A DNA stretch of 46,982 nucleotides. It comes from a virus. A program made the position numbers and the translations under genes. The DNA is taken from the IMG/VR virus record IMGVR_UViG_3300023184_004110, positions 1 to 46,982 of that record, one strand, 5' to 3'. The notes under the pieces are model-generated. The model was not told the DNA's origin, ran no database searches, and saw only the letters and a list, made by a program, of their open reading frames with translations. Below are positions 1,886 through 45,184 of the stretch, in pieces; positions within the stretch are counted from its first letter, which is position 1, and each line of letters starts with the position of its first letter.

Positions 1886-2449
1886 ATGAACGGAAATAAC
1901 TTATATCTGCATCTTGAACTACCATTGGAGTTTAAAGAACCACCATCTGTAAATTTTACAACTGGCCGCATTAAAGAAATTGAGTTCAGTACCGAAGATC
2001 TATTGGAACCGGATTGGCACGCCTGGCTGGGCAGTTTAGGCGTTAGAACAAAATGGGGCAGGGTAATGACCAGCGGTGTGGGTCAAAGATATGACATACA
2101 TATTGATTGTATGGATCCTCCGGGAAATCAGGCAGCACTTTTAAATTTTATGTTTGAAGGTGACGACAGTGAAATGATGTGGTACTCTATGTTGCCTGGT
2201 AAAGAGCCTCACAAATATACCAATACCAGGGGCGCCCAGGTGCAAGGTTATCGCCCAGAAGACTGTGTGGAAATCTATAGATCGCGCCCAAGCAAATCAT
2301 GCTTGGTCAATACTGGAATTCCGCATAGCATGCAAAACCACAACTCACCCAATAGACGCTGCTGGAGTCTATATTTGCACTCTATAGACCTATCCCGCAG
2401 GATAGAATTTCCTGAGGCAAGGGAAATATTTAAGCCTTGGATTAAATGA
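1886..2449 (+). CDS. 2OG-Fe(II) oxygenase-like phage protein
   Basis: 187 residues. A candidate facial triad is DIHID (His72, Asp74) and GIPHSM (His147), with an arginine in NRRCWSLYL (Arg158) placed to bind 2-oxoglutarate. The layout resembles hydroxylase-like proteins common in marine T4-like phages. GAAGGAA precedes the ATG. It is one of few plus-strand genes, expressed from the right arm of the palindromic promoter. The substrate is unknown. The fold assignment rests on motif spacing only, so it could be a non-catalytic relative. Confidence 0.6.
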   Translation: MNGNNLYLHLELPLEFKEPPSVNFTTGRIKEIEFSTEDLLEPDWHAWLGSLGVRTKWGRVMTSGVGQRYDIHIDCMDPPGNQAALLNFMFEGDDSEMMWYSMLPGKEPHKYTNTRGAQVQGYRPEDCVEIYRSRPSKSCLVNTGIPHSMQNHNSPNRRCWSLYLHSIDLSRRIEFPEAREIFKPWIK

Positions 2450-2451
2450 GA

Positions 2452-2469
2452 AACCCGCCGAAGCGGGTT
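2452..2469 (-). terminator. Terminator of the tmRNA gene (possibly bidirectional)
   Basis: A 7-bp stem AACCCGC/GCGGGTT with a TTCG loop on the minus strand, followed by TCTCATTT. It ends the tmRNA transcript. It also lies just after the plus-strand gene ending at 2449, so it may stop both converging units. The stem matches the terminator at 584-612. Confidence 0.65.
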
Positions 2470-2484
2470 CTGGTTGTTTCTTTT

Positions 2485-2720
2485 ATACAGTAAGTCCTAC
2501 TGCACCTTAGCCTTAAGCGGCCATGGAATATAAACTATCGTTTGCCTTTAGTTTGATTTGCTTGATTTACGGTCATCGCCTACCGTGCTGTCCACTTCAA
2601 TACTCCTGACCCAATCGATCCTGTGTCATCCCCACCTAAATACACCTTATACACTTAGGTGGAGATGCCGGGCACTGCCCCCGGGTCTTGGCTCCATTTT
2701 TATCCGTTTCATACAGCAAT
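2485..2720 (-). ncRNA. ssrA: Circularly permuted (two-piece) tmRNA
   Basis: Read on the minus strand, the acceptor part comes first. It has a T-arm-like hairpin, CCGGG/CCCGG around a 7-nt loop (2668-2684), then CATCTCCACC (2658-2667). After a 21-nt spacer comes the start of the coding part, GGTGGGGATG (2627-2636), which pairs with the acceptor end over 10 bp. This includes a G-U at the third acceptor pair, the alanine identity signal. Downstream are GACACAGGATCGATTGGG, a pseudoknot-like stem ACGGT/ACCGT, and a tag frame. This order is that of permuted tmRNA of alphaproteobacteria. CCA is not fully encoded (ACCT), so it would need post-transcriptional addition. Outer ends are approximate. It should rescue stalled ribosomes. 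Confidence 0.9.
2513..2545 (-). other. tmRNA proteolysis-tag reading frame
   Basis: Within the tmRNA, GCA AAC GAT starts a ten-codon frame encoding ANDSLYSMAA followed by TAA. Bacterial tags commonly begin with Ala-Asn-Asp and end with two alanines, recognised by ClpX. The methionine before the final Ala-Ala replaces the more usual leucine or valine. This phage also encodes ClpX and ClpP. Confidence 0.85.
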
Positions 2721-2726
2721 AACTAC

Positions 2727-2734
2727 TATTTATC
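2727..2734 (-). promoter_or_regulatory. Late-type promoter of tmRNA
   Basis: GATAAATA on the minus strand lies directly before the acceptor part of the tmRNA and overlaps the end of the 48-aa gene. It matches the late motif found elsewhere in the window. Confidence 0.5.
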
Positions 2735-2876
2735 GCCAAGTCTTCCTAGCGATCCAATGTTGTATCCGTTGCGCCTGCCTCGCTAGTCCCCAAGGCAGTG
2801 TGAAAAATATCTTCTCACCACTTGGAGTATACATGGTCTTACCATCACTATCGACTCCCATCAATCCTATAAACAT
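2730..2876 (-). CDS. Small conserved-looking phage protein (48 aa)
   Basis: An open frame from ATG at 2876 with GAGGAG six bases upstream. It encodes 48 residues: a polar N-terminus (GVDSDGKTMYTPSGEK), then a basic aromatic tail with ARQAQRIQHWIARKTWR that could form an amphipathic helix. No family is recognised. It sits between the 78-aa gene at 2891 and the tmRNA. Good ribosome site and tight packing support it as real. Confidence 0.6.
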   Translation of the reverse strand: MFIGLMGVDSDGKTMYTPSGEKIFFTLPWGLARQAQRIQHWIARKTWR

Positions 2877-19351: not shown

Positions 19352-20182
19352 TTATTCAGCGGCAGCGGCACCGCATTTGGCACGTTTGGCTCGGGTCAAC
19401 GCTCCAAAGTCCACCGGCCATTCTGCCCCGGGATTGAGTTCTCGAGCAGCAGGCGGAAATGCAAATTGTACACCTGCCATGGTTTGAATCTGTGAAACTG
19501 GCAATCTAAATTTAGTTAAGTCGTTGCCTAAATTAACATATGGTTTAGTATGCGGGAATCCCCAACCTGCTATTTCGTTTGTTTGATTGTTAATAACAAT
19601 CTTATAGAAACCATGAGGCACAACTACACCTGCGCCGATTCTAGGATCCTGTGCATCGTACACACCACCTACGTAGATGGTGTAGCTTTGATTGCGCTGT
19701 ACTGCCCACCCACGTATACTGGTTTCTAACAGTTTCCAAATACCACGATTCAGTGAGCCATGCTGCGGACTCATATTGGTCATTAAGAAACTTTCGTATT
19801 CGACCTGCTGGTCCCATGATAGATCACCATCGGGACTCATGTGTCCTTTATCGTAACCAGTGCCAGCATAGTCATCAGGTTTAGGACCGTTTTGTATGCT
19901 CTGATCAGCAACAAATGCATTGGTGCGTGGCCAGCAACCCAGTGCATTTTGTGGCAATAGTTCGTAGGTTACATACTTAGGTAGTTTAGCAGCGGCATCA
20001 TATCCTACCAAGTAGGCCTGACGGCAAATTGGCTGTACACCTGCTGTTTGTGGGAAACCGTACGGAGCATGCACTCGGCAGGTTTGTGGATCTTGTGGGG
20101 CCCGTTGGGTCCACGCTTGTGCATTAACTGCTGCTATTACCAGCAGGATTGAGATTATAAATTTTTTCATCGAGTGCTCCAT
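19352..20182 (-). CDS. Exported DNA/RNA non-specific endonuclease (NUC1/EndA type)
   Basis: 276 residues from the first ATG, or 272 from MKKFIISILLVIAAVNAQAW, which is a Sec signal peptide and has GGAG seven bases before it. The beta-beta-alpha-metal core is DKGHMSPDGD (catalytic His), then TNMSPQHGSLNRGIWKLLE with the metal-binding Asn. It should cleave DNA and RNA in the periplasm or outside the cell, perhaps to recycle host nucleic acid or exclude rivals. The promoter lies in a 12-bp-arm palindrome at 20173-20203 that overlaps the start region. Confidence 0.85.
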   Translation of the reverse strand: MEHSMKKFIISILLVIAAVNAQAWTQRAPQDPQTCRVHAPYGFPQTAGVQPICRQAYLVGYDAAAKLPKYVTYELLPQNALGCWPRTNAFVADQSIQNGPKPDDYAGTGYDKGHMSPDGDLSWDQQVEYESFLMTNMSPQHGSLNRGIWKLLETSIRGWAVQRNQSYTIYVGGVYDAQDPRIGAGVVVPHGFYKIVINNQTNEIAGWGFPHTKPYVNLGNDLTKFRLPVSQIQTMAGVQFAFPPAARELNPGAEWPVDFGALTRAKRAKCGAAAAE

Positions 20183-20214: not shown

Positions 20215-20808
20215 TTACCTGCGTTTTTCAATAACCTTATCAGCTAGTCCGTATGCAACTGCTTCTTCTGCACTCATGAAACGGTCTCGATCCATATCCG
20301 CTTCTAGTTGTTCGTATGTTTTACCTGCTGAGTTATGATCTCGGTAGATACGGATCAAGTTCTTTTTAAGGAAAGTGATCTCTTTGTACTGGATTTCAAT
20401 GTCACTCTGCATGCCACGTGCGCCACCACTGGGTTGATGGATCATGTGTCTAGCATTAGGCAAGATGTAACGCATGCCCGGTGCACCTGCTTGTGCAAGT
20501 AAACTGCCCATACTGGCTGCTTGTCCCATGACAATGGTGCTGACCTTTGGCTTGATATATTGCATGGTATCGTAAATGCTCATGCCTGCTGTAACACTAC
20601 CCCCGGGACTGTTGATGTAGAACAGGATATCTGCATCAGGATTATCACTCTCTAGGAACAGTAATTGTGCTACCACCAGACTGGCGCTGTGATCGCTTAC
20701 TTCTGTGTCTAGCATGACAATGCGATCTTTAAGCAAACGGCTGTATAGATCATAACTGCGCTCGCCGTTGCTGGTACGTTCCAGCACCATGGGTACTAAA
20801 TTTGGCAT
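20215..20808 (-). CDS. clpP: ATP-dependent Clp protease proteolytic subunit ClpP
   Basis: 197 residues, full length for ClpP. The catalytic triad is visible: GQAASMGS (Ser99), MIHQPSGG (His124) and EADMDRDRF (Asp171). The substrate-strand motif [11 protein letters not shown] and the N-terminal [17 protein letters not shown] loop, used to dock the ATPase, are intact. ClpP forms a double-ring barrel that degrades proteins fed by ClpX or ClpA. A perfect sigma70 promoter (20836-20864) precedes it, so it is probably early. The phage also encodes ClpX and a tmRNA. It may replace or mix with host ClpP. Confidence 0.96.
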
Positions 20809-21420: not shown

Positions 21421-21777
21421 ATGTTCAAAAAAATTAAAGAGTTTTTCGTAGGTAAACCTGTAGAAGCCGCTGCACCGTATAAAGTAGAAGCACCCGCACC
21501 TGTTATAGCCGAAGTTGCTGCGGTACAAGTAGAAACTGTTGCAAGTTTTTCTACTGTTGTTTCAGAAGCGCCTGCACCTGTTACAGAAAAAGCCATTAAT
21601 CCCGAAACAGGTGATGTGTATGACAAACTGGTGACACCAGAAGCGCCTGCACCTGTTGCAAAGCCAAAACGTGCTGCAAAGCCCAAGGCTCCTGCTGCTG
21701 CTAAACCAGCTAAGGCTCCAAAAGCAGCCGCAGCAAAAGCACCTGCAAAACCAAAAGCTAAATCAAAGAAGGCCTAA
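21421..21777 (+). CDS. Histone H1-like Ala/Lys/Pro-rich protein
   Basis: 118 residues. The N-terminus MFKKIKEFFVGKPVEAAAPY may form an amphipathic helix. The middle has repeats of EAPAPV, and the last 45 residues are almost only Ala, Lys and Pro (KPKAPAAAKPAKAPKAAA), like the tail of histone H1 and bacterial H1-like proteins. It probably binds DNA or RNA non-specifically. AAGGAG precedes the ATG. The 3' end overlaps the tail of the convergent UV endonuclease gene by 15 bp. Confidence 0.65.
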   Translation: MFKKIKEFFVGKPVEAAAPYKVEAPAPVIAEVAAVQVETVASFSTVVSEAPAPVTEKAINPETGDVYDKLVTPEAPAPVAKPKRAAKPKAPAAAKPAKAPKAAAAKAPAKPKAKSKKA

Positions 21778-22803
21778 TTGTTTAGCCTCTTCGTATAATG
21801 CGAAGCTGGCTAAATTTTTACCTTTCGACTCACACATGATGTCGAATCGATCTAGAAAACTCAGTGCCCACCGGTTTACTGCTGTATTCCAGTAGAAATC
21901 ACTATGCGCTCTGAGTTTTTGTTTTTTGTGTCCTGATTCTAACAATGCAGAATGATCTGGCATTACACCAGTGTTGTGATCCACCAGATAATCCTCTCGG
22001 CTAAGAGAATAATGAAGTGTAGGGCGCACACCACGCCAACTGTCCACCACACGATCAACGCGACTATCTGTCGCTGAGACATATTCCCCTTCTCGTATCC
22101 AGTGATGATGTATGTCGAGCACAATAGGAACGATATCGCTAATAGTAAGGCAATCATCTAATCCCCAAGCATTTTCTTCATTTTCAATTGTAATGCAATT
22201 TCTTGCCTCTGGGCTAAGTCTGGCATGTGCTCTTCGTATGCCCGCAGGGCCTTCGCGACCTGATATGTGGACATTGATTTTGAGGTCTTGGAATCGTTGG
22301 CCATAGCCCATCCAGCGAGCCATGTCTGCGTGGTATTCAAATTCTTCTATGCTCCTATCGACAATACCAGGATTACTGCTAGCAAGAACAGTGAACTGGC
22401 CAGGATGAAAGCTGACACGTACATTGCGGCTGCGAGCGCTGTTACCGATAGATATAAAATTGCGCTCACAATAGTCACGAACATCGCTACGGCGCCAAAA
22501 ATAACTCCAATCAGCTTGGGTATAAACAGGCAACAAATCGCTGCTAAGACGAACCATCCTAAGATTTTCATGTAATTCTCCTACTCGATCTACCAAGCGC
22601 CGTGTGGCTTCAATGTTCCGCACCATCAAGTCCCACAATCGCTGTTCAGCTACATCCAGTGTCTGTCGCTTTAACCAAGCACATGTGGTGGTTCCAGTAT
22701 TATATTGTTTACAATCATCTGTAGAGTCAATACCGTCAACTTGTGACGGATGATCGATCCACTTACATGCAAATCCCAAGCTGCCTAGGCGTTTGAAGGT
22801 CAT
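21763..22803 (-). CDS. uvsE: UV damage endonuclease (UvdE/UvsE)
   Basis: 346 residues. Motifs of the TIM-barrel UV endonuclease are clear: RLGSLGFACKW at the start, RLSSDLLPVYT, SFHPGQFTVLAS, HADMARWMGYG, NVHISGREG, TIENEE and LDIHHHW. The metal-binding His and Glu residues fall in these blocks. The enzyme nicks DNA 5' of pyrimidine dimers and other lesions, starting repair without the UvrABC system. It has its own sigma70 promoter at 22835-22863, so expression is probably early. Confidence 0.95.
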   Translation of the reverse strand: MTFKRLGSLGFACKWIDHPSQVDGIDSTDDCKQYNTGTTTCAWLKRQTLDVAEQRLWDLMVRNIEATRRLVDRVGELHENLRMVRLSSDLLPVYTQADWSYFWRRSDVRDYCERNFISIGNSARSRNVRVSFHPGQFTVLASSNPGIVDRSIEEFEYHADMARWMGYGQRFQDLKINVHISGREGPAGIRRAHARLSPEARNCITIENEENAWGLDDCLTISDIVPIVLDIHHHWIREGEYVSATDSRVDRVVDSWRGVRPTLHYSLSREDYLVDHNTGVMPDHSALLESGHKKQKLRAHSDFYWNTAVNRWALSFLDRFDIMCESKGKNLASFALYEEAKQLGLL

Positions 22804-25607: not shown

Positions 25608-25636
25608 ATTGTACGCTATTATTTGACTATTGTCAA
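25608..25636 (-). promoter_or_regulatory. Sigma70 promoter of the exonuclease gene
   Basis: TTGACA-17-TACAAT on the minus strand, overlapping the end of the upstream nucleotidylyltransferase gene. The -10 box is only about five bases from the ATG. Confidence 0.75.
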
Positions 25637-26098
25637 GTGTTTTTTGCTCTCAGCTTCGGCTACCCGTTTGCGCAGGCTACTGCTACTGAAACTGTGATCC
25701 CGCCCATTATAGACGATTTCGATCCCACGCTTTTGACAAATATCTCTACCGGTAAAGTCTTTGTCTTTATACTCTACACCCAATATCCTAACATCAACTG
25801 GCAATATCAGCAAAAGGTCTTCTACGTCTTTTTCAGTTTGGTATATTACCACTTCATCCACGTTGCGATTAGTGCTCAACTGTATCTGTCGCTCTACAAT
25901 GCTCTGCACTGGTGGGTTCTTGCTGTCCGGGCGATCAATGGTGGGATCGGTCTGTAGTGCTGCAATCAAGTAATCACAGTGATTTTTAGCTTCACTCAGC
26001 ATGGCAATGTGTCCTGCATGCAGCAGGTCAAACGTGCTGAAGGTGATGCCAATCTTTAAACCATCCCGCTTGAGTTCTTTTACTTTATTGAATATCAT
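25619..26098 (-). CDS. Cytidylyltransferase-fold nucleotidylyltransferase
   Basis: 159 residues from the ATG at 26098, which overlaps the preceding stop (ATGA). KIGITFSTFDLLHAGHIAML (residues 15-34) holds the HxGH motif of the cytidylyltransferase superfamily (TagD, RfaE). A second motif, SSSSLRKRV, near the end matches the ISSTxLR-type region that binds nucleotide. It would join CTP or ATP to a phosphorylated sugar or glycerol. In a phage it might modify surface polymers or nucleotides. The substrate is not determinable. Confidence 0.85.
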   Translation of the reverse strand: MIFNKVKELKRDGLKIGITFSTFDLLHAGHIAMLSEAKNHCDYLIAALQTDPTIDRPDSKNPPVQSIVERQIQLSTNRNVDEVVIYQTEKDVEDLLLILPVDVRILGVEYKDKDFTGRDICQKRGIEIVYNGRDHSFSSSSLRKRVAEAESKKHLTIVK

Positions 26099-26271
26099 AC
26101 CACTTCTTCTACAATGCCCAGAAGTTCTGCTATGATTAGACAATAACCAGCCATTAGCAAGTTACCTCCGATTAAGCAAGCACCCGCTACTATACGAATA
26201 GCACTCTTTACAAGGCTGACATAAAAATGGCCTCGGCTGGTGTCTCGAGGTTGGACTTCAAGGTCGATCAT
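26095..26271 (-). CDS. Small membrane protein (58 aa) between clpS and nucleotidylyltransferase
   Basis: 58 residues. A polar head (MIDLEVQPRDTSRGHFYVSL) and a hydrophobic stretch VAGACLIGGNLLMAGYCLII (about 28-47) give one membrane helix. It overlaps clpS upstream and the nucleotidylyltransferase downstream, both as ATGA, so the three are probably translated together. No family recognised. Confidence 0.65.
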   Translation of the reverse strand: MIDLEVQPRDTSRGHFYVSLVKSAIRIVAGACLIGGNLLMAGYCLIIAELLGIVEEVV

Positions 26272-26645: not shown

Positions 26646-27101
26646 TTAATCGCCACTGGTAATGGCAATTTTACGAGGCTTGAGTGCATCAGGAACTATG
26701 CGCTCAAGTTTAACTGTAAGCATGCCATTTTTAACTACAGCATCCTTGACTTCCAAGTAACTACCTAGTGTGAACTTGCGCTCAAAACTACGTTGACTAA
26801 TGCCCCTATATAGGTAATCGGTCGCAGCAGTTGTTGGAATTTTTTCTCCAATGATAGTTAAAACATCTCCCTCAATACTGACATCAATGTCGCTGTAGTC
26901 AAATCCAGCTACAGCAAATTCAATAGAGTATTCATTTTCACTGTACTTAACAATGTTATACGGGGGATAGTTACTTTGATTTGTCTGCGTGTCTTGCATA
27001 CGCAAAATTTCATCAAACAAACTTTCATAACCTATTGTAAACCTTGAAAGAGGCGCGGATAGTGGCGCAAAGTCTATGCGCCCTATTGTTAGTTTTGTCA
27101 T
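26646..27101 (-). CDS. Small heat-shock protein Hsp20 (IbpA-like)
   Basis: 151 residues. The alpha-crystallin domain runs from about residue 45, with EFAVAGFDYSDIDVSIEGDV, LTIIGEK and the IbpA-like YLYRGISQRSFERKFTLG, then VKNGMLTVKLERIVP. The C-terminus PRKIAI carries an I-x-I type anchor. It holds unfolding proteins for refolding by DnaK, whose gene is directly upstream. Ribosome site TAGGAG and leader TTGCTTAA resemble those of dnaK. Expected in the host cytoplasm. Confidence 0.93.
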   Translation of the reverse strand: MTKLTIGRIDFAPLSAPLSRFTIGYESLFDEILRMQDTQTNQSNYPPYNIVKYSENEYSIEFAVAGFDYSDIDVSIEGDVLTIIGEKIPTTAATDYLYRGISQRSFERKFTLGSYLEVKDAVVKNGMLTVKLERIVPDALKPRKIAITSGD

Positions 27102-27174: not shown

Positions 27175-29079
27175 TTATTGAGCGTCAGGTTTAACTTCCT
27201 TAGACTCAACATCTACTGGGCCATCGGCTGGTGCAGACTCTGCTGCTTTTTTTGCAGCTTCTTCAGCATCACTCTTGGCCTTTGTTAGTGAATTGTATGC
27301 TTCATACACTAGTGGCATACATTTTTGAATGTCAGGAACATCGCCATCAGCTGCTGCTTTTTTTAGATTAGCAATAGCCTCAGTTAGCTTGGTCTTTTCT
27401 TCTTCAGTGATTTTATCACCGTAGTCCTTGAGATCTTTTTCAATTTCATTAACCAAGCCCTCAACTTGATTGCGTTGATCGATTAATTCGCGTTGCTTCT
27501 TGTCAGTTTCGGCATTGAGCTCGGCATCCTTGATCATGTCTTGGATTTCTTTTTCACTCAAGCCACTGTTGGCTTTAATGGTAATATTGTTTTCCTTACC
27601 AGTTGCTTGATCCTTGGCGCTGACTTTAAGAATACCATTTGCATCAATATCCAATGTGACTTCAATTTGAGGTTGTCCACGACGTGCTGGTGGAATACCG
27701 TCAAGATTAAATTCACCCAATACTTTGTTGTATTGGAATATTTCACGCTCGCCTTGCGCAACTTTGATAGTGACACTAGGTTGGCCATCTTCGGCGGTAC
27801 TAAACACTTGGCTATGCTTAGTTGGGATAGTTGTATTTTTAGAAATTAACTTAGTAAACACACCGCCCATGGTTTCAATACCAAGACTTAGTGGAGTAAC
27901 GTCTAGCAATAGAACGTCTGTGCGTCCTCCACCCAATACGTCACCTTGGATAGCAGCACCAGCGGCAACTGCCTCGTCTGGATTAACATCTTTACGTGGT
28001 GCCTTGCCAAATAGCTTTTCAACAACTTCTGCAACCTTAGGCATGCGTGTCATACCGCCAACAAGGATAACCTCGTCGATGTCAGCAGCAGTAACCTTAG
28101 CATCTGCCATGGCAGTTTTACAAGGAGCAATGCTGCGTTGAATTAGCTCATCAACTAGACTTTCTAACTTGGCACGTGTTAACTTAACATTTAAGTGCTT
28201 AGGACCTGTTGCGTCTGCTGTGATGTAAGGCAGGTTAACATCAGTTTGGGCACTGCTTGACAATTCAATCTTGGCTTTTTCAGCAGCTTCTTTTAGTCGC
28301 TGTAGAGCCAACATGTCTTTCTTAAGATCAACCCCATTATCCTTCTTGAATTCATCAACCAAGTAATCCATAATACGTTGGTCAAAGTCTTCACCACCTA
28401 GGAATGTATCACCGTTAGTGCTTAGTACTTCGATTTGTTTGTCGCCATCAACATCTGCTAACTCAATGATACTTACATCAAATGTACCACCACCCAAGTC
28501 ATATACAGCAATTTTACGGTCACGCTTGTCTTGTTTGTCCACGCCATATGCCAATGCAGCAGCAGTTGGCTCATTGATGATACGCAGAACTTCTAAGCCT
28601 GCGATGCGTCCTGCGTCCTTAGTAGCTTGACGTTGACTATCATTGAAGTAAGCAGGAACAGTGATAACTGCTTGTGTAACTTCGTGCCCAAGATAGTCTT
28701 CAGCGGTCTTTTTCATTTTGCGAAGTATTTCAGCTGACACTTGTTGAGGAGCCAATTTATCGTCGTTGGCTTCAATCCATGCATCACCGTTGTCGGCTTG
28801 GGTAATTTTGTAAGGCATCAAGTTGATGTCTTTTTGTACAGCTGATTCTGTGAACTTGCGTCCAATTAGACGTTTAGCTGCATAGATTGTATTTTTGGGA
28901 TTTGTAACTGCCTGTCGTTTGGCGCTGGCACCTACTAAGATTTCACCATTGGCATAAGCTACAATACTAGGTGTAGTTCTAGCACCTTCGCTGTTTTCAA
29001 TGATTTTGGGGATACCGTTTTCAATGACGGCTACACATGAATTTGTGGTACCCAGATCGATACCGATGATTTTGCTCAT
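27175..29079 (-). CDS. dnaK: Chaperone DnaK (Hsp70)
   Basis: 634 residues from ATG at 29079, preceded by AAGGAG; upstream in-frame sequence is leader. Full length for DnaK. The ATPase domain shows [47 protein letters not shown] and [10 protein letters not shown]. The linker [19 protein letters not shown] and substrate domain are intact. The lid ends in a Glu/Asp-rich tail. It folds and protects proteins using DnaJ and GrpE, which are not in this window, so host cofactors are likely. A whole phage-borne Hsp70 is uncommon. Confidence 0.96.
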
Positions 29080-29137
29080 AATTTTCTCCTTAGTTAAGCA
29101 AGAATATGTAAGACCCCACCCGGGCATCCTACACATG

Positions 29138-29168
29138 TATTTATACACGATCCGTCAATAGCTGTCAA
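29138..29168 (-). promoter_or_regulatory. Composite early/late promoter of dnaK
   Basis: TTGACA-17-TATAAA (29140-29168) overlaps a perfect T4-type late octamer TATAAATA (29138-29145) on the minus strand. It lies at the end of clpX, so dnaK can be transcribed both early and late. Confidence 0.75.
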
Positions 29169-30379
29169 TTTTTTTGATAGTTTGCCAGTGTTCCGGACAA
29201 CACAGTATCTTTTGTTATTTCAATTTGGTTGAACTCTGCTTTGATTGCTTCTATGTTAAACATATATGGTTTAAGTAGGTTTTCCAAAATACTCTTTAAT
29301 CCCCTAGCACCCGACTTCATTGCTAATGCCTGTTGTGCTATTTCTTGTACTGCGTCATCTGTAAACACTAGATCTACATTATCGATTTTAAAATAAAATT
29401 GCATCTGCCTGATTAGATTATTCTTAGTGTCAGTAAGTATAGCAGTCATGTCGCTTAATGTCAAGTCTTCTACGTAGGTAATTAAAGGAAATCTGCCAGT
29501 AAATTCTGGTATCATTCCAAACTTAATAAAATCTTCTTGTTGAAATTGTTTACGGTCAACTTTGATTGGAGTTACGGTTCCACCGAATCCTATAGTTGAT
29601 CCCGAATTGGTTCTCTTATCAATAATTTTATCAATATCCGAAAACGCACCCGCTGCAATAAACAAAATGTTTCGAGTATCAACTTCTACACTATCGCTCA
29701 TGACGTTTCTGCGATTACCACCAATGTTAACTTTACATTTAGTGCCTTCTACTAATTTAAGCAAGGCCTGCTGCACACCTTCACCAGACACATCACGAAC
29801 AAATGGATTTTCTGATTTACGTGCAATCTTATCGACTTCGTCGATAAAAATAATACCTTGCTCACATTTTTCTATATCGTATTCAGCTTCGGCCAGTAGT
29901 CTACCTATTAGGCTTTCTACATCATCGCCTACATAACCAGCTTCAGTCAGTGTGGTGGCATCGGCAATTACAAATGGTACCTTGAGATACTTGGCTATCA
30001 TCCTGGCCATTAAGGTCTTACCTGACCCAGTAGGACCAAATATTAAGATATTGCTTTTTTCAACTTCGTTTTGTGGTTTAAAATATATGCGCTTATAATG
30101 ATTTACCACTGCTACGCTCAGTGTTATCTTAGCATCATCTTGACCAATGATGTGATGGTCAAGATATTTTTTAACCTTGGCTGGGTCTAGTACACCACCA
30201 ATGCGTTTTTCTTTTTTAAGAGCATCGTTTTTTTCTTTGTTTAGTATGCTGCCGCATAACTCGATACATTCATCGCAGATGCCTACATTGTTGGCTACTA
30301 TTAGTTTAACAACTTCGGCTTTATCTTTATTGCAAAAATTACAAAACACTCGACTACTATTGAGATTTATTTCGTTCAT
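29165..30379 (-). CDS. clpX: ATP-dependent protease ATPase subunit ClpX
   Basis: 404 residues from ATG at 30379, inside the end of the preceding gene (23-bp overlap). The zinc domain has Cys13, Cys16, Cys35 and Cys38. The AAA+ core shows Walker A GPTGSGKT (115-122), pore loop GYVG (148-151), Walker B IIFIDE (176-181) and sensor-2 GARGL (357-361). The IGF loop (263-265) that docks ClpP is present. ClpX unfolds tagged proteins, including tmRNA-tagged ones, into ClpP. With phage ClpP and tmRNA here, a complete disposal route is plausible. Confidence 0.95.
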   Translation of the reverse strand: MNEINLNSSRVFCNFCNKDKAEVVKLIVANNVGICDECIELCGSILNKEKNDALKKEKRIGGVLDPAKVKKYLDHHIIGQDDAKITLSVAVVNHYKRIYFKPQNEVEKSNILIFGPTGSGKTLMARMIAKYLKVPFVIADATTLTEAGYVGDDVESLIGRLLAEAEYDIEKCEQGIIFIDEVDKIARKSENPFVRDVSGEGVQQALLKLVEGTKCKVNIGGNRRNVMSDSVEVDTRNILFIAAGAFSDIDKIIDKRTNSGSTIGFGGTVTPIKVDRKQFQQEDFIKFGMIPEFTGRFPLITYVEDLTLSDMTAILTDTKNNLIRQMQFYFKIDNVDLVFTDDAVQEIAQQALAMKSGARGLKSILENLLKPYMFNIEAIKAEFNQIEITKDTVLSGTLANYQKN

Positions 30380-32027
30380 TTTTTGAAATGTACTCTTCGA
30401 TTTGATCTTTTTCACTAGCACTTAAATCTTCAGGATCATATGAACCTGTTGCTAGTTTGTCTATCAAGTATTTAACGTATTCTTCGTTGTAGCTGTAAGT
30501 ATCTGTTGTAGATTTGTCTATTTCAATCCAGTTGTTATTGTATCTATATAAACGAGTTGGCAAGTAGTCTACCCTTAGATATAGATCACCCTTGTTGGCA
30601 GTTTTAGGAAACTCTGTGCCAAATAACGCATTAATTTCAGTTACTGATTTTGGATCATTATCTGCTTTGATTATATTTTTCTTATTAGTATTCGCTGCTT
30701 CTGGTGGCACATACGGAGCAGGCTTTGGTTTCTGTACAATAAATTCTGGCACAACTGGTTTACTTGGTAGCACTGGCGCAGATATTGTTGGCATTGTAGC
30801 CGGAAACTCTTTTTCTACTACTGGCATCGTGATCTTGATTTCAATTGGTTCGTAACCTTCTAACGCCCACCCATCGACTACATCGCATGCCTTATTTGGA
30901 CAGAACGGACCAATGCCGGGTGCGTTAATCAATGGGGTACCACATTTATAGCAAGGCTCTAATGCACTATCACTTGGCTCTGTGGGCTTATATACTTGTA
31001 TTGGTACTGGGTCTATGCCCGGTGGAGTTGCACTACCTGCAGGAGTAAACAAATAAGGATGGTCATCGATATCAAATTCTTTTGCTACAGTCTCTTTTAT
31101 TTGTGCAATCTGTTCATCAGTTAGCGGACCATCGTCGGGTTCGTAAAGCGGCGACTGTCCGCCTGGCCATTTAACATATTCGTCGTCGTACCCGGGTATG
31201 GGAGGTCTGTCGGGCCACGGAGTCTTGTAACCATCTTCTGCGACTTCTTCCTCTTTTGCTGCTAGTCGATCTTCACGTGCCCAGCGTAGGCTCTGTTGTG
31301 ATGCTAATATTAAACACAATGCCAGTGGGTCAAATACTATAACGATCAATATAATAACCCAACGCACTGAACGTTCTAATATATTGCTGTCAGGATTGTC
31401 ACCATAAATTAACGCCGCGATATATTTAATCGGCCCAACCTCTGCTTCGACCTTGCGTACCTCGGCGGCAATAGGCGCACGTTCATCGTTAAGTCCCGCG
31501 ATAGACTTCTGCGACTGTAGTATTTCATTTTGAAGTCTAACACGCTCTTTCTGCTGGGACTTTCGCAAAGCCACAGCCTTGTCGGCACCCGTTTCTGTTG
31601 TTGAGCGGCCCAGTACTTGGTCCACTCCCTCATCCATTTGTTTAAGTGCCTTACGGTTTGCTTCAATATTCTCTTTTTCGGTTCGGATTTTTTCATCGTA
31701 TACAGCTATTTTACTTTGTACATCACCCGACACTAGATTTTGGTCGTTGTGTGCTTTACTTAGGAAACCAAAAATTCCCATGCTGGTTAGCAGCATAAGG
31801 AATACTACAGCTGGAATAAGATAGCTTTTGAATTTCCAACTGGCTCTTTGCCAATTGTTATGCAGCCAAACGGTAGCCATCACCTTGCCTAGCTCTAAGC
31901 TGGCGCCCATGATTATGATTGGAATTACTGCCGCAGAAAAGATAGCAGTCAAGCCTATTATTGAATAATAAGCAGCCACCATGCTCAAAATTAGAGCGGT
32001 GAGTAACATTGTAAAAGCAAATGCCAT
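30357..32027 (-). CDS. Large membrane protein with coiled coil and zinc-ribbon-like motif
   Basis: 556 residues. N-terminal membrane helices (MAFAFTMLLTALILSMVAAY; IGLTAIFSAAVIPIIIMGAS; LIPAVVFLMLLTSMGIFGFL) are followed by a coiled coil (about 100-200), another helix pair near RWVIILIVIVFDPLALCLIL, then a long soluble tail with CYKCGTP and FCPNKAC, a likely zinc ribbon. Similar proteins occur widely in T4-like phages with unknown function. The gene overlaps clpX, so the two are coupled. Confidence 0.7.
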   Translation of the reverse strand: MAFAFTMLLTALILSMVAAYYSIIGLTAIFSAAVIPIIIMGASLELGKVMATVWLHNNWQRASWKFKSYLIPAVVFLMLLTSMGIFGFLSKAHNDQNLVSGDVQSKIAVYDEKIRTEKENIEANRKALKQMDEGVDQVLGRSTTETGADKAVALRKSQQKERVRLQNEILQSQKSIAGLNDERAPIAAEVRKVEAEVGPIKYIAALIYGDNPDSNILERSVRWVIILIVIVFDPLALCLILASQQSLRWAREDRLAAKEEEVAEDGYKTPWPDRPPIPGYDDEYVKWPGGQSPLYEPDDGPLTDEQIAQIKETVAKEFDIDDHPYLFTPAGSATPPGIDPVPIQVYKPTEPSDSALEPCYKCGTPLINAPGIGPFCPNKACDVVDGWALEGYEPIEIKITMPVVEKEFPATMPTISAPVLPSKPVVPEFIVQKPKPAPYVPPEAANTNKKNIIKADNDPKSVTEINALFGTEFPKTANKGDLYLRVDYLPTRLYRYNNNWIEIDKSTTDTYSYNEEYVKYLIDKLATGSYDPEDLSASEKDQIEEYISKNERNKSQ

Positions 32028-36703: not shown

Positions 36704-37027
36704 TTATACGCTGAAACTGCTGCCGCAGCCGCATGTACTCTGTGCGTTGGGATTTTTAATAACGAATTGACTGCCGGTTAGGTCTTCCCTATAGTCAACA
36801 TCTGCGCCCTGTAGATATTGACTGCTCATTGCGTCCACTAATACTGCTAGTCCTGACTGCTCTATTACAAAATCATCTTCGTTTTGTACTTCGTCTAGGG
36901 TAAAACCGTAGCTAAAACCACTACAGCCACCACCTTGTACAAACACACGCAGGCGAATATCTGGATTGTTTTCCTCTGCCAGTATGTCTTTTATCTTTAC
37001 TACTGCATTTTCAGTAAGAGTCATCAT
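36704..37027 (-). CDS. A-type iron-sulfur carrier (ErpA/IscA-like)
   Basis: 107 residues (or one less from the second ATG). The three ligand cysteines are Cys35 in [11 protein letters not shown] and Cys99/Cys101 in STCGCGSSF, with the family's [13 protein letters not shown] start. The pattern matches ErpA/IscA proteins, which deliver Fe-S clusters to target enzymes. Its start overlaps the superoxide dismutase stop (ATGA), so the two are co-translated. It may feed phage or host Fe-S proteins under oxidative stress. Confidence 0.93.
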
Positions 37028-37584
37028 CGTATACCACCATATATTCTGCGGTTAACGTATTCCCAATTGATAATACGCCACATACTGTCTAGATATCGTT
37101 CTTTATTGCTTTGGTAGTCTAGGCTCCAAGCATGTTCCCACCAATCAATCAGCAGGGCAATGTCTGTCTTTTTTGCATGATTGCGTATTGTTTTGATTTC
37201 GCCTGAGCGTGACATGTAGATCCAGCCCGATCCTTGCAACTTCATTGCTTCTTTTTTAAATTCGTCTTGGAATCTATCAAAGCTGGTCCAGCGCCTATTA
37301 ATTAGTGCAAGGCTAGTGCCGTGGGGTTTATTACCGGATTTAGGTGATTGCAGTTGTGGGAAGAATATATTGTGTAAGAAAGCGCCAGCTTCGTTAAAGG
37401 CAGCATCTCCCTCACCAGCATTATAGCGATCTACATAACCTTTTGCCAGCTTGCCGTAGTGGTAATTCACTGTGGCTAGGGTCATCACAGGTGCTAGTCC
37501 CTCACGTGAGTAGGGTAGACGCTGCAATTCTAGATTGTGCTTGCTTTTATCTTCAATAAGATCAATGGCTTGTCGTATTTCCAT
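37024..37584 (-). CDS. Fe/Mn-family superoxide dismutase
   Basis: 186 residues. Metal ligands are His42 (NYHYGK), His71 (FLHNIFF), Asp147 and His151 (IDWWEHAW). The gateway Tyr50 is kept, but the residue matching His30 of the E. coli enzyme is Leu46. The second-shell Gln position appears to be His136 (RNHAKK), and HAYY is HAWS. It should convert superoxide to peroxide in the cytoplasm, which rubrerythrin could then remove. Iron or manganese preference cannot be read with certainty. IF-1 lies directly upstream, overlapping by one base. Confidence 0.9.
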
Positions 37585-45109: not shown

Positions 45110-45184
45110 TGGTCCGGCGTAACAGAATCGAACTGCTATCTAGGGAGTAGAAATCCCCTGTATTATCCATTATACTAACGCCAG
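45110..45184 (-). tRNA. tRNA-Arg (anticodon UCU)
   Basis: A 75-base cloverleaf on the minus strand. Acceptor stem CTGGCGT/ACGCCGG with one T-G wobble, D-stem GTAT/ATAC, anticodon stem GGGGA/TCCCT with loop TTTCTAC (anticodon TCT, reads AGA), T-loop TTCGATT, and an encoded CCA. AGA is often rare in high-GC alphaproteobacteria but commoner in this AT-richer phage. Confidence 0.9.

Follow-up and report, generated by a model that had tools for sequence, protein, structure and literature searches.

A fragment of a T4-like phage of uncultured bacteria carries on its minus strand a gene for a circularly permuted, two-piece tmRNA which, with a probability that we place at roughly 80%, is functional: it would be made late in infection, rescue stalled ribosomes with the SmpB and AlaRS of the host and send the tagged fragments to ClpXP. 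The fragment analysed, called here the window, is the whole linear stretch of 46,982 nucleotides of an IMG/VR virus record, and it also encodes collagen-like tail-fibre proteins and a subtilisin-like protein with relatives in T4-like cyanophages. Read from the sequence, the form of the gene, the conservation of its fold, an intact tag, a promoter motif and a co-encoded ClpXP are the observations on which this interpretation is built.

The permuted tmRNA gene and its fold

The Rfam family RF04321 (tmRNA_permuted) matched positions 2513-2718 (-) over its full model (1-213) with 116.7 bits and an E-value of 3e-22, and RF01850 (beta_tmRNA) matched 2447-2771 (-), also over its full model (1-331), with 103.2 bits; both scores are above the gathering thresholds (103.2 against 84 for RF01850). 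ARAGORN, run on this DNA, missed the gene. The initial annotation had proposed a phage-borne permuted tmRNA at 2485-2720, and the Rfam matches bear this out as to the kind of gene; the interval does contain the RNA gene (about 2513-2718) but leaves out a terminator-like hairpin. After the gene as a whole, its elements are listed in their order along the minus strand:

2513-2718, minus strand: permuted tmRNA gene (ssrA), with tRNA-like and tag-coding parts (RF04321, RF01850, covariation)
2727-2733, minus strand: T4-type late promoter motif ATAAATA (GATAAATA, 2734-2727) upstream of the tmRNA (motif scan)
2668-2684, minus strand: T arm CCGGG-GGCAGTG-CCCGG with an alpha-type T-loop (alpha_tmRNA consensus GGCgGUA, against UUCGAUU for beta)
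2658-2667, minus strand: acceptor 3' half CATCTCC + ACC (CATCTCCACC), with CCA only partly encoded
2637-2657, minus strand: linker of 21 nt, beta-type in sequence, presumably excised when the two-piece RNA forms
2627-2633, minus strand: acceptor 5' half GGGGATG, forming G3-U70 with the 3' half
2610-2626, minus strand: D-loop ACACAGGATCGATTGGG, alpha-type (segment comparison, Rfam alpha consensus)
2570-2585, minus strand: hairpin CGGT-AGGCGATG-ACCG, beta-type (11 cells with compensatory change at the last pair)
2513-2545, minus strand: tag reading frame ANDSLYSMAA + TAA (ORF translation)
2452-2469, minus strand: terminator-like hairpin closing the transcription unit, also within the 3' end of the beta_tmRNA match

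The order is permuted, since the acceptor half CATCTCCACC (2667-2658) stands 5' of GGTGGGGATG (2636-2627, GGT-GGGGATG), to which it is joined through the linker. The two form the 10 pairs, with a G-U at acceptor pair 3, that had been noticed initially, and the pairing runs on into the linker as an unbroken 19-bp precursor hairpin. The discriminator next to the acceptor stem is an A (CATCTCC-A-CC), and the D-loop, read along the minus strand 3' of GGT-GGGGATG, is ACACAGGATCGATT. The hairpin at 2452-2469 was a plus-strand entry in the terminator scan; its stem reads on both strands, and on the minus strand it is followed by TTTCTCATTT.

Across 24 distinct aligned sequences, of which 23 come from virus records and one is bacterial, the pairs of the window structure are kept in 96.1% of cells, a figure biased toward the true register because the structure was read from the window itself, against only 37-44% of cells in slid controls. 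Both sides have changed in 12 of the 33 pairs and the acceptor G3-U70 is invariant (24/24). The compensatory changes are not accounted for by the bias of reading the structure from the window and support a conserved tRNA-like fold above chance. Single-sequence folding gave z = -2.4, with the acceptor-linker hairpin and the T arm as drawn. Because the loci were collected with two motifs, the CATCTCCACCTAAG signature and a T arm reading GGGGGCNGNNCCC, some of their features are given by the choice itself and the counts are biased, so that the shares of beta linkers in the alignment and of alpha T-loops in the 98-sequence set are not frequencies; the loci from the second viral scan, being those among the matches listed, are a lower bound.

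Alpha-type and beta-type segments

A clear alpha_tmRNA match had been expected initially, and this expectation failed: the best Rfam subtype is beta_tmRNA, and alpha_tmRNA (RF01849) gave no reported match. The alpha character nevertheless stands for the elbow, and only there. The RF01849 consensus has the T-loop GGCgGUA and the D-loop AGGAUCGAC, whereas that of RF01850 has UUCGAUU and GGUUUCGAC, neither of which occurs in the window tmRNA; its T-loop GGCAGTG and D-loop AGGATCGATT keep the alpha type with some letters different from the consensus. The linker and the AGGCGA hairpin match beta. When the T arm, linker, D-loop and hairpin were compared segment by segment, they came out as alpha, beta, alpha and beta, with wide margins between the alpha and beta scores for the T arm (34.5/16.5), the linker (23/34) and the hairpin (39/58) and a narrow one for the D-loop (23.5/20.5). 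Two bacterial beta genes (L158 and L160) were beta in every segment of the same comparison. By its sequence, the window tmRNA is a mosaic of an alpha-type elbow on a beta-type linker and tag-proximal hairpin. Two other phages (L110 and L122) have nearly the same linker together with a beta elbow, which indicates that elbow and linker have been swapped or converted relative to each other.

Because of this mosaic make-up, the tmRNA does not point to one single host lineage, as the initial annotation had supposed it would. The tmRNA of a sister phage (L092, record G004) scored highest with the alpha model (60.7 bits), against beta for the window; inference of the host from the tmRNA subtype was dropped and no host is claimed here. 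We also gave up the idea that the GGCAGTG T-loop, which breaks the TTCRA rule, is a phage-specific novelty, since the Rfam alpha consensus identifies it as the normal alphaproteobacterial form. The sister-phage gene has features of its own: a linker of about 130 nt that contains AAGGAGATATTATG (ribosome-binding site and start codon), and acceptor pairs altered to GGGCCTG/CAGGTCC, with compensation.

In 68 sequences (67 viral, one bacterial) the D-loop could be classified, and across them the types of T-loop and D-loop co-occur (53/7/0/8, Fisher 9e-7, in a test that ignores shared ancestry), with the linker lying in between; T-loops ending in AG make up six of the seven exceptions. Since binding of SmpB requires interactions of the D- and T-loops (PMC3968760), matching selection on the two types would be the simplest reading of this co-occurrence, to which shared ancestry contributes as well. 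The matched types suggest that the elbow, the place where SmpB docks, is selected as a unit despite swaps elsewhere in the gene.

Late promoter, tag and ClpXP

The late-type promoter that had been proposed in front of the gene is supported by the distribution of its motif. The minus strand of the window has 11 copies of ATAAATA and the plus strand two. Seven of the 11 precede a start codon by 8-40 nt (p = 9e-9; such positions cover 3% of the window), and another, at 2733-2727, directly precedes the tmRNA. Of 92 distinct upstream regions of phage tmRNAs, 59 have the motif within 120 nt, compared with 1.8% of background windows, and 39 of its copies share the offset -36 or -37 relative to the GAC of the T arm. 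A sigma-70-like promoter is present in the same upstream region in 11 of these 59 cases. In having a TATAAATA-like motif at a constant upstream distance, the gene resembles a T4-type late transcription unit. Phage tmRNAs have long been known without an agreed role, and a late promoter fixed across many of them gives a time of action.

These data also bear on whether the gene is only a passenger, that is, a functionless copy of a host ssrA left by imprecise excision or as the remnant of an attachment site. The ssrA gene is a frequent site of integration, and this idea was raised for the phage Melnitz (PMC9004378); for the window we regard it as very improbable, because the gene is whole and has both promoter and terminator, the late promoter holds a fixed position in many phages, compensatory change keeps the fold across diverged phages, and among 84,980 species genomes of bacteria and archaea the acceptor/linker signature was matched only three times. 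One match is the native beta gene of Dechloromonas, one lies on a contig of Pseudomonas indica (beta, 281 bits), and the third is on an apparently chimeric WWE3 MAG contig.

The tag proposed initially was confirmed as the ORF at 2545-2513 (-), GCA AAC GAT AGT TTA TAT TCC ATG GCC GCT TAA, a short frame of ten codons with a stop and a ClpXP-type degron end, which in the window is MAA. LAA ends 49 of the 68 tags found, and ANDSLYSMAA is the sole 10-mer of the set that ends in MAA. With the alanine borne by the tmRNA, the full tag has 11 residues and is identical to the E. coli tag AANDENYALAA, as quoted in PMC3968760, at positions 1-4, 7, 10 and 11. Among ten-residue tags, variation peaks at third codon positions (0.47, against 0.24 and 0.17).

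No SmpB was found in 27 virus records (the window, its relatives and tmRNA-bearing IMG/VR records, one of them of 209 kb), which are mostly fragments, and the host would therefore have to supply this protein. A phage tmRNA that draws on host SmpB might act as a decoy, competing with the host tmRNA for SmpB and AlaRS and so blocking or retuning trans-translation, and the tag-less tmRNA of mycobacteriophage DS6A was reported to inhibit host tmRNA (PMC11915505). A decoy needs no tag; that of the window is intact, ends in a stop, is conserved in relatives and varies mainly at third positions, and a decoy thus appears improbable to us.

Longer tags were seen in other phages. Two loci (L121 and L122, records G052 and G045) and two further ones have tags of 29 residues, such as AKASTGEVTVSGKNVKFSARTVKAESFAV, which end in FAV or LAV, not LAA, and are possibly poor degrons for ClpXP. 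In L107, L116, L041, L051 and others the tags are likewise unusually long, 24-31 residues, as in ANDDSFDFAALSFTGNTVGGRVALAA.

The window encodes ClpX and ClpP themselves, along with two chaperones:

20215-20808, minus strand: phage clpP, Ser-His-Asp triad kept (NF001368, 299 bits, above the curated cut-off)
26646-27101, minus strand: IbpA-like small heat-shock protein (best model IbpA, 120 bits, below the model's equivalog cut-off)
27175-29148, minus strand: phage dnaK (Hsp70; profile match)
29165-30421, minus strand: phage clpX (TIGR00382, 460 bits, above the curated cut-off)

Apart from these, many stress and metabolic genes lie on this one phage fragment, and a tRNA gene is also present:

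756-1241: rubrerythrin-like protein
1353-1829: Asp/Asn hydroxylase-like protein
19352-20182: non-specific endonuclease-like protein
21763-22803: UvdE-like protein
25619-26143: nucleotidyltransferase of HldE type
37024-37584: superoxide dismutase-like protein
45110-45184, minus strand: tRNA-Arg (TCT) gene

ClpX was found in six of 22 tmRNA-bearing virus records, which had been found regardless of ClpX, and in none of the 28 records from that scan that are tmRNA-negative (the two sets total 1.21 and 1.27 Mb; Fisher 0.005, ignoring shared ancestry); with near-identical phages merged, it was found in four of 20 tmRNA-bearing records (p = 0.025). The control set consists of 28 of the 50 records tested from a 15-mer scan of viral contigs, those being matches without a detectable tmRNA. 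Five of the six ClpX-bearing records have some 3-6 kb between the tmRNA and clpX; in record G030 and in the window (26 kb) the two genes are far apart. The ClpXP of Acinetobacter phage MD-2021a was not counted, because its tig-clpP-clpX order looks like that of a bacterial contig.

The phage ClpX keeps the C4 zinc finger, Walker A and B, the GYVG pore loop, the IGF loop that binds ClpP, and sensor 2. The RKH loop and the pore-2 loop of ClpX touch the ssrA tag, and both are changed in the clade of the window ClpX: the former is NRRN in the window and NRRN or NRKN in the clade, and the latter is one residue shorter throughout. With ClpX and ClpP on the tmRNA's own fragment and a tag ending in MAA, these changes could mean that the tag and the phage ClpX have co-diverged, so that phage ClpXP prefers proteins tagged by the phage. 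We find such a dedicated pathway rather unlikely, given that the sister phage (G004) shares these loop changes and yet has an ordinary tag, ANDSQFALAA, that a change from L to M is mild, and that ClpX was not seen in most tmRNA-bearing records, most of which are fragments.

Our preferred reading remains a working tmRNA that serves trans-translation late in infection, and we infer its expression, cleavage, charging, use of SmpB, tagging and degradation as follows. A late phage transcript would start just after ATAAATA, and a cut at the acceptor hairpin would remove the 21-nt linker, after which the acceptor stem would hold the acceptor and tag pieces together. The host would complete the CCA, AlaRS would charge alanine through G3-U70, and host SmpB would bind the elbow of this alpha/beta mosaic RNA, in which D-loop and T-loop have stayed matched. 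The complex may then free ribosomes stalled late in infection, for instance on degraded host or phage mRNA, and add (A)ANDSLYSMAA to unfinished proteins, whose MAA end, close to LAA, would lead to destruction by ClpXP, host-made and/or phage-made. The intact clpX and clpP genes of this phage make phage ClpXP a possible destroyer and an obvious destination for the tag. Going further, large T4-like phages may run a late tag-and-degrade system of their own, composed of a mosaic two-piece tmRNA under a late promoter, which would tag the products of stalled ribosomes, and a ClpXP with altered tag-contacting loops, which would remove them, so that protein turnover escapes host control; this extension we offer only tentatively.

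Comparison with known systems

Phage-borne permuted tmRNA is not new, as it has been published: 53 two-piece tmRNAs, most of them from marine or aquatic phages, were described among public phage genomes, including Methylophilales phage Melnitz (PMC9004378), and 79 unique phage tmRNAs of all forms were reported elsewhere (PMC11915505). For the mix of parts in the window, namely a mosaic tmRNA, a late promoter, and ClpX and ClpP on one fragment, we found no earlier report. A literature search covering few subscription journals, and thus weak evidence, returned no alpha/beta mosaic and no fixed late promoter for phage tmRNAs; a direct DNA search in named phages gave no counterpart of the window tmRNA.

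Among bacterial forms, beta_tmRNA (RF01850), represented by the native gene of Dechloromonas (L160), shares with the window the linker hairpin TAAG...TTTAGGT, the AGGCGA hairpin and the gene order. The Dechloromonas gene differs in its score (286 bits against 103) and in its elbow, where the T-loop is TTCGACT (GGCAGTG in the window) and the D-loop GGTTTCGAC (AGGATCGATT in the window); native bacterial beta_tmRNA genes, at 281-286 bits, lie far above the 103.2 bits of the window. With alpha_tmRNA (RF01849) the window shares the T-loop GGCRGNN and the D-loop AGGATCGA, but it resembles beta in the linker, the acceptor pairs and the tag-proximal hairpin. Two of the bacterial signature matches deserve mention here. 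The Pseudomonas indica contig (L158, 63-391) holds a strong beta-type permuted tmRNA (281 bits) in a genus not expected to have one, for which transfer, a mobile element or contamination are candidate explanations. In the WWE3 MAG contig (L159, 3218-3733), the beginning of a beta-type permuted tmRNA comes straight after a standard one; the linker of this second part is identical to that of P. indica in every letter, so that the contig is probably a chimera, assembled across the acceptor sequence that both parts have in common.

Among phages, Melnitz is, like the source of the window, a T4-like myophage with a circularly permuted tmRNA and its own tag, but its ssrA groups with alphaproteobacteria and was reported to follow an early promoter, together with a glutamine riboswitch, whereas the window has a late-type promoter and a mosaic gene (PMC9004378). 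A tmRNA and Clp genes (six Clp ORFs) also occur in one genome in the Sinorhizobium jumbo phage AP-J-162 (PMC11242549). Prevotella phage Lak-A2 has a tmRNA and ClpX as well, but the tmRNA is of the standard one-piece form and the phage has its own SmpB; its ClpX (L149) is interrupted at the Walker B site (between E. coli residues 185/187) by an insertion of about 316 residues that looks like an intein. The isolated jumbo phage Phosso of Sinorhizobium (PV764938) combines a permuted tmRNA with ClpX and ClpP and no SmpB, as does the window, but its tmRNA (L150) is of alpha type with a linker of about 400 nt between the acceptor and coding halves. Bacillus phage G, likewise an isolated jumbo phage, has tmRNA, ClpX and ClpP, but with a standard one-piece tmRNA. 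Since Phosso and phage G bring the same combination in phages of known hosts, the question is open to testing at the bench.
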